In this document: piece after piece, positions 32,668 through 48,578 of the stretch | Position numbering within the stretch: the stretch's first letter is position 1 | Layout of the letters: the number at the start of each line of letters is the position of its first letter | NCBI RefSeq assembly: GCF_021129305.1 | Contig: NZ_JAJOMB010000008.1 | Coordinates: 62,001-126,000, forward strand | Origin: Kineosporia babensis | GTDB lineage: Bacteria > Actinomycetota > Actinomycetes > Actinomycetales > Kineosporiaceae | Reading direction: 5' to 3' | Length of the DNA: 64,000 nucleotides | Notes under the pieces: generated by a model | The model's database searches: none | What the model saw: the letters and a program-made list of their open reading frames with translations, nothing else | What the model was told of the DNA's origin: nothing | Position numbers and translations under genes: made by a program

Positions 32668-33159
32668 CGTGGGAGGCGTTCCTGGTCTCGCCGAACCTCG
32701 CACCGCAGATGGTGAAGGCCTCACGTGCTCCGGCCAGAAGAGGAACCCGGTTCGCCCAGATGTCGGCCGATGTGGCCGGTGGGACTCCTCGCAATGGTTT
32801 TCCAGGCCGGACGCAGTCAGACGGCGTCACTCGTAGCCTTGAACTTCCCGGGCCTCCGATCCACTTCACCGGTGCTGGCCGACCTTGGTCGAGGCCGCTG
32901 CGGCCGCCTGTCGGCCGATCCGGGAGGAGCGTCTCAACCTGCTGAAACATAGTGGACGGAGGGCGAATACAACGGTTCCGACTGAATGGCCATGGCCCAC
33001 CTCGAGGTAGGGTGATGGACACTGGCTCTGCCGGAATCCTTTGGTAGTTGTACGGTTGCGCCGCCGTGGCCCGAGAGGAACGACCGGCCAACGACATCCG
33101 GCGTCCTTGGCTACTGGCGGAACCCGACCAGCCGAAACAATGCGCGCACCGGCTGTTTA

Positions 33160-33318
33160 GGAAATGCCTTGGCATCCGCTGCAGTAGCGAGGAGATGCCC
33201 GGGGCGTCGGCTGACGTGGCCGGTGGAGCCCCTCCCAGCAGCGTTCTACGTGGGGCAACAGCGAACACGGTCAGATGGTTTCACGAGTGCCTGTAGTAGA
33301 CATGGAATTTCGAACGGC
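33160..33318. mobile_element. Degenerate MITE, copy of the element at 47049-47211
   Basis: 159 bp flanked by TA dinucleotides (33158-33159 and 33319-33320). The left 43 nt match the reverse complement of the other copy at 34 positions, including an exact GTAGCGAGGAG. The centre shares GTTCTACGTGGG. The right end shares GTAGTAG-CATGGA-TTTC. The internal self-complementarity is largely lost, so this copy is old. Confidence 0.65.
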
Positions 33319-33580
33319 TATAGGTGCGGACCCATGGATACCACGGTAGGTGTGGCAGTGAGCACGCCCCTGGGTCCGGCTGTGAGCCCCCTTGGAGGCG
33401 TGGCCCGAGAGGTACGGCAGGAGGTGCGCGGCCCGCGGGAACCGCGGTAGGTGCGGCCCGGGAGCGTCATGTCCAGGGCGTCGGCGGTGCCGCCCACCGC
33501 CTCGTCGGTCGCGTCGTGACTGTGTGGCGAGTTTGGACACGACTGTGGTTACGGCCGTAGGCGCGGCCCGCGAGCACTGC
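33314..33580. repeat. Interspersed GGTAGGTGCGGCCCG-like units
   Basis: At least five related units of about 17-29 nt, at 33314, 33340, 33413, 33441 and 33551, with the shared core AC-N-GCGGTAGGTGCGGCCCG and often GAGCRC after it. Spacings are irregular (26 to 110 bp). The function is unknown; they adjoin the old MITE. Confidence 0.5.
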
Positions 33581-46169: not shown

Positions 46170-47006
46170 TCAGCTGTCCGCCGAGTGCCCGCCCGCATCG
46201 AGCCGCATCGAGCCGGTCCAGTCCGATCCGGGCGTCAGCTCGACCGGCTGCAGCACCGCCGGCTCGATGCAGACCCAGCCGCGCTCGGCCCCGTCCGGCA
46301 CGTCGCCCAGCCCGTGCCCGGCACCCGGGTTCCAGACCACCCGGTCGGGAAAACCGTTGGCCGTGACCACCAATCGCCCCAGCTGCGGGTCCTCCAGAGC
46401 GACCGGATCGCCCGCCCCCTCGATCGCGACGTCCCGAGTGGTGAGGGCCTCGATGGCGCCGCCGGGCTCGCCCAGGACGAACTCCGGACCACCGGTGCTG
46501 TCCGCCGCCACCCGGCCGCCGAGCCCGGTGATCACCGCAGCAGGGTCACCGACTGTGAAGTAGCTGTGCAGGGCCGCGGTAAAACTCCAGGTCTCGTCCG
46601 ACGGGTTGCGCGCGGTCAGCTCCAGGTCGAGGGTCTGGCCCTGCGCCCGGGCGGTCAGCTCCAGCTCGAAGGCGTGCGGCCAGACCTTGCGGGTTTCCTC
46701 GTCGTCCACCAGTCGCGCGCTCCACACGCCCGGTCCGGCCTCCACCTGGGTCCAGGCGCGGTTGCGGGCCAGGCCGTGCTTGGGCAGCGGACCCCGGCCG
46801 GCGAACTGCGGGAAGATCACCGGCACGCCACCCCGAATAGCCAGCCCCGGGCCACATTCCGCGGTGGGGCTGAGCCACAGCCGGGGCCGGCCACCGGCCG
46901 GGGTCCAGCCGGTGACGTGCCCGCCGTGGGTGCAGACCGTCAGCTCGGCGCCGTCCGGCGCGGTCAGGGTCTGCGAAGTACATGGATCGATTGCCATGTT
47001 CAGCAT
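46170..47006 (-). CDS. D-hexose-6-phosphate mutarotase (aldose-1-epimerase family, YeaD-like)
   Basis: 278 residues (or 275 from an internal ATG at 46995-46997). Galactose-mutarotase beta-sandwich with the YeaD-type signatures RGGVPVIFPQFAGRGPLPKHGLARN, TAALHSYFTVGD (catalytic His) and GWVCIEPAVLQPVELTPGSDW (catalytic Glu). It interconverts alpha and beta anomers of glucose-6-phosphate or similar sugars in the cytoplasm. Single-gene unit. Confidence 0.92.
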   Translation of the reverse strand: MLNMAIDPCTSQTLTAPDGAELTVCTHGGHVTGWTPAGGRPRLWLSPTAECGPGLAIRGGVPVIFPQFAGRGPLPKHGLARNRAWTQVEAGPGVWSARLVDDEETRKVWPHAFELELTARAQGQTLDLELTARNPSDETWSFTAALHSYFTVGDPAAVITGLGGRVAADSTGGPEFVLGEPGGAIEALTTRDVAIEGAGDPVALEDPQLGRLVVTANGFPDRVVWNPGAGHGLGDVPDGAERGWVCIEPAVLQPVELTPGSDWTGSMRLDAGGHSADS

Positions 47007-47048
47007 TCTGGCTGGCGGCGAGCCTTGGTCCGAGCCCGCCGCGCTTTA

Positions 47049-47211
47049 GGTCGTGTTTTGAAAGTCCATGCCTACTGCGGGGCACCCGGTGGCCGCCTGG
47101 ACTGCGCCGTTGGAACGCCCACGTAGAACACCGCTACGAGGGCGTCCCAACGGCTTGCCAGACGACCACCGGGCACCTCCTCGCTACGGCAGCGACTTCC
47201 AAAACACTCCC
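47049..47211. mobile_element. 163-bp palindromic MITE upstream of serS
   Basis: Flanked by TA on both sides (47047-47048 and 47212-47213). The two halves are imperfect inverted copies over nearly their whole length: left end GG-N2-GTGTTTTG-N-AAGTC, right end (reverse complement) GGGAGTGTTTTGGAAGTC. Further in both have CCCGGTGG, CCGTTGG and a central hairpin around CGCCC-N2-GTAG. It codes for nothing and would be mobilised in trans by a transposase with matching ends. TA duplication suits IS630-type or some IS5-type enzymes. It ends 77 bp before the serS start and can fold into one long hairpin in a leader RNA. Confidence 0.75.
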
Positions 47212-47288
47212 TAAACGCGAATGCTGAACGCGTATACCCACCGCTAGCATCGTCGGCGGTAAAACCCTTCCTGGTGAAAGGTCCTTCG

Positions 47289-48578
47289 ATGCACGACCCG
47301 CGCGCCCTGCTCGACCCGGGCACCGAGGCGGTCCGACGGCTCGCCCGCCGTGGCTACACCCTCGACGTGCCCGCCCTGGAAGAGCTCCTGTCCAGCCGCA
47401 ACGCCGGTATCAAGACGGCCGACGACCTGCGCGCGGAGTCCAAGAAGCTGGCCGCGGAGGTGGGGAAGACCGCCAAGGCCGGAGGCGACGTGAGCGCGCT
47501 CAAGGAACGCGCCCGGCAGATCAAGGACGAGATCAAGCAGGCCGAGGAAGGCGTCGAGCAGAAGGCCGCCGACCTGCGCGAGTGGATGCTCAGCATCCCC
47601 AACCTGCCGCTGGACTCGCTGCCCGACGGCTTCAGCGACGAGGACGCCACCGAGATCCGGACCTGGGGCACTCCCCCGGAGTTCGACTTCACCCCGCTCG
47701 ACCACGTCGATCTGGGCGAGCGCACCGGCATCCTCGACTTCGCCCGGGCCACCAAGCTGTCCGGCCCGCGGTTCCGGGTCGCCAAGGGGGCGGGCGCGGC
47801 GCTGGAGCGCGGCCTGGTCTCGTTCTTCCTCGACACCCACATCCGCGAGCACGGGTACACCGAGTTCGCGGTGCCGCATCTGGTCAGCCCCACGGCGCTG
47901 GTCGGCACCGGGCAGCTGCCCAAGTTCGAGGAGGACCTGTTCCGCACCTCGGCCGGCAGCCGGGACCTGTACCTGATCCCGACCGCCGAGGTGCCGCTGA
48001 CCAACCTGCACGCGGACGAGATCGTCGAGCCCGGTGAGCTGCCGCTGGCCTACACCGCCTGGACGCCGTGCTTCCGCTCGGAGGCCGGTTCGTACGGCCG
48101 GGACACCCGTGGGCTGATCCGGGTCCACGAGTTCGAGAAGGTCGAGATGGTGCGGATCTGCGCCCCCGACCAGTCCCAGAACGAGCTGGAAAAGCTGGTG
48201 GGGCACGCCGAGGCCCTGTTGCAGAAGCTCGGCCTGGCGCACCGGGTGATCCTGCTGGCGGCTGGCGACACCGGTTTCGGCGCGCAGATGACGTACGACG
48301 TGGAGGTCTGGCTGCCCGGGCAGAACGCCTTCCGGGAGATCTCGTCCTGCTCGGACTGCGGCCAGTTCCAGGGCCGGCGGGCCAACATCCGGACCCGCAC
48401 CGAGGACGGCAAGCGCGAGTTCGTGGCCACGCTGAACGGTTCGGGGCTGCCGATCGGGCGGACCGTGGCCGCTCTGCTGGAGAACGGTCAGCAGGCCGAC
48501 GGGTCGATCGTGATCCCCGAGGCGCTGGCCAAGTACACCGGTTTCAGCACCATCCACGCCGACGGCAAGACCGACTGA
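47289..48578 (+). CDS. serS: Seryl-tRNA synthetase
   Basis: 429 residues from the ATG at 47289. An N-terminal coiled-coil tRNA-binding arm (about 30-105), then class II catalytic motifs: motif 2 at FRSEAGSYGRDTRGLIRVHEFEKVE and motif 3 at GLPIGRTVAALLENGQ. YLIPTAEVPLTNL and EISSCSDCGQFQGRRANIR complete the serine/ATP site. It charges tRNA-Ser. The stop directly abuts the stop of the convergent PPOX gene. No T-box is seen; a MITE occupies the leader. Confidence 0.97.
   Translation: MHDPRALLDPGTEAVRRLARRGYTLDVPALEELLSSRNAGIKTADDLRAESKKLAAEVGKTAKAGGDVSALKERARQIKDEIKQAEEGVEQKAADLREWMLSIPNLPLDSLPDGFSDEDATEIRTWGTPPEFDFTPLDHVDLGERTGILDFARATKLSGPRFRVAKGAGAALERGLVSFFLDTHIREHGYTEFAVPHLVSPTALVGTGQLPKFEEDLFRTSAGSRDLYLIPTAEVPLTNLHADEIVEPGELPLAYTAWTPCFRSEAGSYGRDTRGLIRVHEFEKVEMVRICAPDQSQNELEKLVGHAEALLQKLGLAHRVILLAAGDTGFGAQMTYDVEVWLPGQNAFREISSCSDCGQFQGRRANIRTRTEDGKREFVATLNGSGLPIGRTVAALLENGQQADGSIVIPEALAKYTGFSTIHADGKTD

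Follow-up and report, generated by a model that had tools for sequence, protein, structure and literature searches.

A MITE-like palindromic element of Kineosporia and Kribbella with a conserved core, matched variable ends and strand-polarised pairing

The window analysed here, a stretch of 64,000 nucleotides from Kineosporia babensis, carries a near-complete palindrome upstream of serS (positions 47047-47213, TA-GG...CC-TA, with 163 bp between two TAs). Judged by comparison with its relatives, this sequence is a MITE-like mobile insertion. We propose that it is a non-autonomous, non-coding mobile element whose folded strand of one sense may serve its own movement, a reading to which we give a probability of about one half. 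Of the two core arms, GCCGTAGCGAGGAGGTGC is the first to be read on this better-folding strand, which we call O1; at the window copy it is the minus strand. Each end of an element copy was classed with whichever of three types it most resembled: A (GTGTTTTG), B (CTGTCCTGTGGATC), or K (Kribbella). The features of the locus are as follows.

47047 to 47213, no strand assigned: whole element including the terminal TAs, 167 bp; O1 is the minus strand here
47049 to 47068, plus strand: left terminal inverted repeat, type A, GGTCGTGTTTTGAAAGTC.., from sequence and end typing
47070 to 47085, plus strand: conserved core arm GCCTACTGCGGGGCAC, from an alignment of 22 elements
47122 to 47138, no strand assigned: apical stem-loop CGTAG...CTACG, replaced pairwise in other subfamilies by CGCAA/TTGCG and CGATG/CATCG
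47173 to 47190, minus strand: conserved core arm GCCGTAGCGAGGAGGTGC as read on the minus strand, unlike the other arm, from the alignment of 22 elements
47192 to 47211, minus strand: right terminal inverted repeat, type A, GGGAGTGTTTTGGAAGTC.., from sequence and end typing
46170 to 47006, minus strand: divergent neighbour gene with its start at 47006, which we take to be aldose-1-epimerase-like
47245 to 47250, plus strand: TAGCAT, a possible serS -10 element, with a similar form at five empty sites
47289 to 48578, plus strand: serS, the downstream neighbour, with the name taken over from the first-pass annotation
33158 to 33322, no strand assigned: second family member within the window, decayed, from sequence match with the ends set by eye

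The first-pass annotation had described inverted halves flanked by TA, a very long hairpin and a distance of 77 bp to serS, and closer inspection agreed with each of these. GTGTTTTG lies near both ends in inverted orientation, and 77 bases separate the element from the ATG at 47289. Folded as RNA, the plus strand of 47047-47214 gave -96.9 kcal/mol (z -9.9); its 200 dinucleotide shuffles averaged -57.1 kcal/mol (sd 4.0), and none of them folded as well as the window copy. On the minus strand (O1), the core arm at 47173-47190 contains AGGAGGTG, a Shine-Dalgarno-like octamer that is enclosed in the stem and is present in 73 of the 110 Kribbella copies.

The element is short and non-coding, has terminal inverted repeats, and occurs in many dispersed copies, as is general for MITEs. 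A BLAST search of its own genome with the window element gave 49 matches, including fragments and double counts of the palindrome. At least 30 of the copies are full-length, and the 30 with cores of 110-125 bp were used in our counts. Among 58 genomes, seven matched the window element: its own, five congeners, and one with a 30-base match that we take for chance. An exact core 20-mer was sought in one genome per species over 84,980 species, a collection from which records like the own genome may be missing. Seven stretches were returned, four from Kineosporia rhizophila and one each from K. mesophila, Kribbella sandramycini, and a Leptolyngbya MAG; the last showed no element features by eye and looks like chance. 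In Kribbella, 38 of 38 genomes had a match, a few of them weak (the weakest was a single match with E 6e-4), and the matches over the 38 genomes number at least several hundred, fragments included, with up to 22 candidates scored per genome. The asymmetric core recurs in Kineosporia and Kribbella under several kinds of terminus. A pattern scan allowing up to two mismatches over 396 genomes of the phylum, a sample that may or may not include Kribbella, returned the own genome and two single hits at which no second arm or end was seen by eye. Plasmids gave no match to the window element or the Kribbella element, phages gave none to the Kribbella element, and viral contigs gave none to the core 20-mer or a Kribbella 22-mer. 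Among the Kribbella matches listed, one stretch (L294, G447:C25:431621-431946) has two copies in the same orientation a few bases apart. A literature search of titles and abstract openings, with coverage of few subscription journals, did not find these elements named.

We compared the same intergenic region in congeners, where the element was absent in 5/5. The own site joined across the element reads CGCTTTAAACGC; the corresponding sequence in congener G001 is GCCGTTAACCC. The stretch between about 47245 and the ATG, including the TAGCAT-like hexamer, is largely common to the empty sites, with some changes, which would place the element upstream of the apparent native serS control region, although a scan for a sigma-70 consensus found none. 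The comparison thus does not support the proposal that the element lies within the serS leader RNA or carries the serS promoter. The window copy probably has little effect on serS, and its relation to that gene looks incidental. A conserved serS leader structure, which the first-pass annotation had named as what the sequence would be if it had no other copies and were conserved in place in relatives, is ruled out by the five empty sites, and copies are many. We also followed one Kribbella site through 30 orthologous loci sharing the same 5' neighbour. The site is filled in three (G470, which is the source of the query, G473, and G482), and no element was found within 330 bp in the other 27. 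Flank identity to the query in the filled genomes was 100, 92, and 88%, with empty genomes falling in between, which suggests repeated insertion at this site.

TA was present at both ends in 32 of 47 full-length copies, with a CTAG site in 18 of these 32. In 18 of the 47, the stop codon of a predicted gene shares the junction TA (21 junctions, 19 with a native stop, on crude gene calls). The element ends read TAG, so that a stop codon can be restored on insertion. Of the 110 Kribbella copies, 28 overlap a predicted ORF and were excluded from distance counts. Around the others, the gene end was no more than 6 bp from the element for 33 of 45 O1-sense genes on the upstream side and for 31 of 51 genes of opposite sense on the downstream side. 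Compared over these copies, the element is seen to insert mostly at T-A steps and often at gene stop codons. TA/TA was found in 46 of the 110 Kribbella copies, and equal outer dinucleotides in only 3 of the other 64. The A beside GG was 95% conserved and the outermost T 66%, and in these alignments the inner A/T of the Kribbella ends behaves as part of the element. The designation of the window sequence as a MITE is thus upheld by dispersed copies, TA junctions, and empty sites, but not by a TA duplication beyond the TA/TA copies. A plain MITE also leaves out the conserved core, the matched hypervariable ends, the polarised wobble pairs, and the skew-linked orientation that are described below.

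To compare cores with ends, we used a two-arm search of 60 fetched stretches plus the window. This gave 53 elements, with eight stretches having none; six of the 53 were dropped for odd core lengths and 47 were kept (30 from the own genome, 12 from congeners, and five from Kribbella). Core and end similarities did not run together. Own-genome subfamilies A2 and B had 89% core identity and 54% end identity, whereas A1 and A2 had 71% core identity and 84% end identity. In a core tree of 46 of the 47 rows (L224 was left out), neither the A nor the B copies formed one group in any of 200 bootstrap trees, and the starred branches force at least two changes of end type. By contrast, a single clade for the type A cores was not rejected by an AU test (p 0.185), so that end type may have changed in one clean switch. 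In one copy, L232 (around 2000-2230), the left end is of type A but the right end is of type B, and the left arm contains additional sequence; this copy may be an A/B recombinant. Internally deleted copies retain both ends. Two stretches of the own genome, L038 (about 1300-1521) and L046 (about 1292-1521), share a 230-bp repeat, 88% alike, in which a right end of type A and a single core arm are joined to a different body; no transposase was recognised in it.

The discordance of cores and ends, together with the possible chimera and the TA junctions, would fit an ordinary IS5-type MITE, that is, a captured or internally deleted palindrome moved via its ends, with an incidental hairpin and with end types that follow the transposase used. 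We regard this explanation as possible but somewhat unlikely; the AU result, which leaves one clade of type A cores standing, counts against it. Candidate mobilisers bear on it in both directions. Transposase loci were gathered by matches to PF13340, PF01609, and PF13359, which gave 32 loci, some of them the same place twice. One of the 32 had fitting ends: an element in congener G003 with type-A-like ends (TAGGGCGTGTTTTGTAAGTCGCG) and an IS5-family transposase of the NF033580 group. Another IS5-type element (L112 in G001) has ends AGAGCGTGTCTCATT.., and among ten related plasmid ISs a TAGGnnnTGT-type motif was present at both ends in four, at one end in four, and at neither in two. These IS5-like ends are suggestive, on sequence likeness, as a pointer to a mobiliser. 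Against an IS5-type MITE, no type B end was found among the 32 loci, which were searched by name for types A and B. The own genome has eight PF01609 matches, and no fitting ends were found at these loci; Kribbella sandramycini, which carries the element, has no PF01609 and no PF13359 match. In two Kineosporia genomes (L108 and L113), an ORF resembling TnpB by eye comes after the frame of a PF13340 IS5-type transposase.

A further difficulty for an IS5-type MITE is that the ends are the most variable part of the element within one genome. For this we used 110 Kribbella copies, made up of 30 loci and 80 stretches from the better near-full-length matches listed. These have 91 distinct left ends (22 nt), with a mean identity between copies of 67%. 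Matching of the two ends was measured on the 96 copies of exactly 167 bp, with the 14 of other length dropped. Between these copies the arms are 96-97% identical and the inner part 92%. Within a copy, the left end agrees with the reverse-complemented right end at 94.0% of the positions from 3 to 22, compared with 65.6% (maximum 69.9%) when right ends were re-dealt 2000 times. Within single genomes (94 copies in 24 genomes), ends were 71.7% alike and inner parts 96.2%; between Kribbella genomes the values were 66.9% and 91.4%. Thus, copies with near-identical interiors have ends that differ from one another but match internally. Over the copies compared, these figures show terminal stems in Kribbella that vary fast but in step.

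We next consider which strand carries the pairing. An alignment of 22 chosen elements showed two-sided changes in 38 of 62 pairs, with 97.5% of cells still paired. Although this alignment was also the source of the structure, 0 of 500 shuffles scored as high on each of five covariation measures, and slid structures scored far lower. O1 folded better than the opposite strand, O2, in 47/47 copies and in 110/110 Kribbella copies. Because energy folding favours G-U, we also used a second method that scores Watson-Crick pairs only and treats both strands alike. With this method G-U exceeded A-C in O1 in 46 of the 47 copies and in all 110 Kribbella copies; the only exception was L233, in which the balance was reversed. 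At Kribbella positions 3-21 there were 62 G-U and 3 A-C (34 and 3 distinct events) and 11 other mismatches. The inner part had 695 G-U and 2 A-C, mostly inherited, and the arm region (22-46) had 334 and 107. At positions 1-2 the polarity was reversed (10 G-U and 18 A-C). The G-U to A-C ratios were weaker in Kineosporia, at 27:9 for positions 3-21, 74:43 for the arms, 168:17 for the inner part, and 3:3 for the outermost bases.

Many G-U pairs are inherited, so that cell counts overstate the number of independent events. When one-sided changes from Watson-Crick pairs were counted within subfamilies, there were 38 to G-U, 16 to A-C (p 0.002), and 32 to other mismatches. Private (singleton) changes numbered 27 G-U, 14 A-C, and 29 mismatches, or 24, 6, and 18 without four copies that were judged decayed post hoc. 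Both routes to G-U exceeded their mirrors (C>T 23 and A>G 15, compared with G>A 7 and T>C 9), and a small control, made up of the 26 changes at unpaired positions, included no C>T. These data argue that deamination alone is insufficient.

Polarised wobble pairs and covariation are classic signs of RNA, and many copies abut stop codons and so lie in 3' regions. Both would fit a structured RNA element, with an O1-sense transcript that affects processing, termination, or stability either from within mRNAs or as a small RNA; NEMIS and ERIC, as far as the accounts drawn on describe them, are parallels (PMC10969869; PMC2229807). If so, O1 might be expected to be sense to its neighbours, but it is not preferentially so. 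By the sense in which neighbours read them, 15 of the 110 Kribbella copies are O1-only, 21 O2-only, 30 both, and 16 neither, with 28 overlapping an ORF. Nor does the polarity change where only O2 is read: the 21 O2-only copies have G-U to A-C ratios of 14:1 at positions 3-21 and 129:0 in the inner part. Neighbouring transcription as the cause of the polarity is thus not supported. In the 47-copy set, private G-U to A-C counts were 12:4 for O2-only copies, 4:0 for O1-only, 4:1 for divergent neighbours, and 7:9 where both sides read in. Around the window copy, a sigma-70 consensus scan found no promoter, and an Rfam search of 46800-47400 found no family at the gathering cut-off and only three sub-threshold miRNA hits. 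We hold an RNA function to be a tentative alternative with the odds against it. Together, the counts from these alignments show that O1 retains G-U in preference to A-C, both at its termini and along the inner stem, regardless of the direction of neighbouring genes. The same preference bears on an IS5-type MITE, where recognition of duplex ends gives no evident reason for G-U over A-C (62:3).

The orientation of copies provides a second kind of strand asymmetry. In single-contig Kribbella genomes, the sign of O1 splits by position among the matches listed. A half-circle split accounted for 15/15 listed copies in G476 (2 of 2000 shuffles were as good), 9/9 in G480 (113 of 2000), and 8/8 in G481 (256 of 2000). 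GC skew was then taken in 20 windows per genome, after the split had been noticed in the same three genomes. Of the 32 copies listed for these genomes, 30 had O1 opposite the G-rich strand. By fitted arcs the counts of listed copies were 15/15 in G476, 9/9 in G480, and 6/8 in G481, and by local skew 14/15, 9/9, and 7/8. We assume that the G-rich strand is the leading strand; coding bias in G476 fits this weakly. IS903, an IS5-family element, also has an orientation preference, and IS608 inserts into the lagging-strand template. If the G-rich strand is leading, O1 lies off the lagging-strand template, which argues against the simplest single-stranded DNA (IS608-like) model.

This placement bears on whether the element is like REPtrons or IS200/IS605 elements, with a Y1 transposase acting on folded O1 and recognising GTAG and bulges. 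O1 has GTAG in the right arm of 106 and the left arm of 85 of the 110 Kribbella copies, it has fixed unpaired positions (compare TnpA-REP, PMC8266576), its orientation is linked to skew, and duplication is not demonstrable outside the TA/TA copies (equal in 3 of 64). Yet O1 opposite the G-rich strand would be the wrong side for lagging-template insertion, if that strand is leading, and the ends resemble those of IS5 elements. We consider a Y1-type element very unlikely.

The orientation bias would also fit survivorship combined with mutation, in which copies disappear when their O1 hairpin falls in the lagging template and the G-T pairs arise by strand-biased deamination, with no selection. 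Palindromes are unstable, and internally deleted copies exist. On the other hand, random decay should give mismatches, yet positions 3-21 show 11 of these compared with 62 G-U, and both the excess of the two G-U routes over their mirrors and the 0/26 C>T at unpaired sites (from a small control) speak against it. We find this explanation very unlikely.

In an ordinary MITE the ends are expected to be conserved, since the transposase must bind them; the Kribbella copies instead combine a constant core with ends that are their most variable part. Variable matched ends, a constant core, polarised wobble, and skew-linked orientation point to recognition of a folded strand. We return to the idea that the folded O1 strand serves the movement of the element. 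Because pairing is kept whichever way neighbouring genes read the element, a folded O1 single strand (ssDNA, or RNA of that sense) may be needed for the element's own multiplication. The movement would be carried out by a protein acting in trans on the TAGG...CCTA ends; for Kineosporia, the likeliest candidate is an IS5-type transposase. That the two ends change in step suggests that one arm may template or constrain the other during movement. A more specific version, which we regard as unlikely, is that a folded strand of fixed sense would act at the replication fork, where the ends would be renewed as a matched pair at each jump by copying one arm from, or proof-reading it against, the other, and the asymmetric bulged core would be the true recognition site and so stay constant.

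As a comparison, several known systems share part of these features. In IS1272, as far as the source describes it, transposition replaces an inverted repeat, the target hairpin being replaced (PMC5678879), so that here too a hairpin is linked to transposition; by contrast, no hairpin was noticed by eye in the serS or Kribbella empty sites. IS5-family elements of the NF033580 group have TAGGnnnTGT-type ends like those of this element, which differs in being non-coding and in having type B ends without an IS counterpart among the 32 loci. The Correia/NEMIS and RUP MITEs are described as small TA-ended palindromes whose movement is ascribed to IS-type transposases acting in trans (PMC2229807, in the part drawn on), whereas in the present element the ends differ between copies and the core is conserved. 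ERIC is a 127-bp intergenic palindrome with TA ends, a stable RNA fold, and an orientation-dependent effect (PMC10969869; PMC2229807), and it resembles this element in the palindrome, the terminal TAs, the stable RNA fold, and the importance of orientation. Compared by description, the portions of those accounts at hand do not mention matched hypervariable termini or replichore-linked orientation for ERIC. REP/REPIN sequences with TnpA-REP, again from a partial account (PMC8266576), are like this element in strand-specific folding, GTAG, and conserved bulges, but the element described here has a much longer stem, TA-type junctions, and a variable outer stem.
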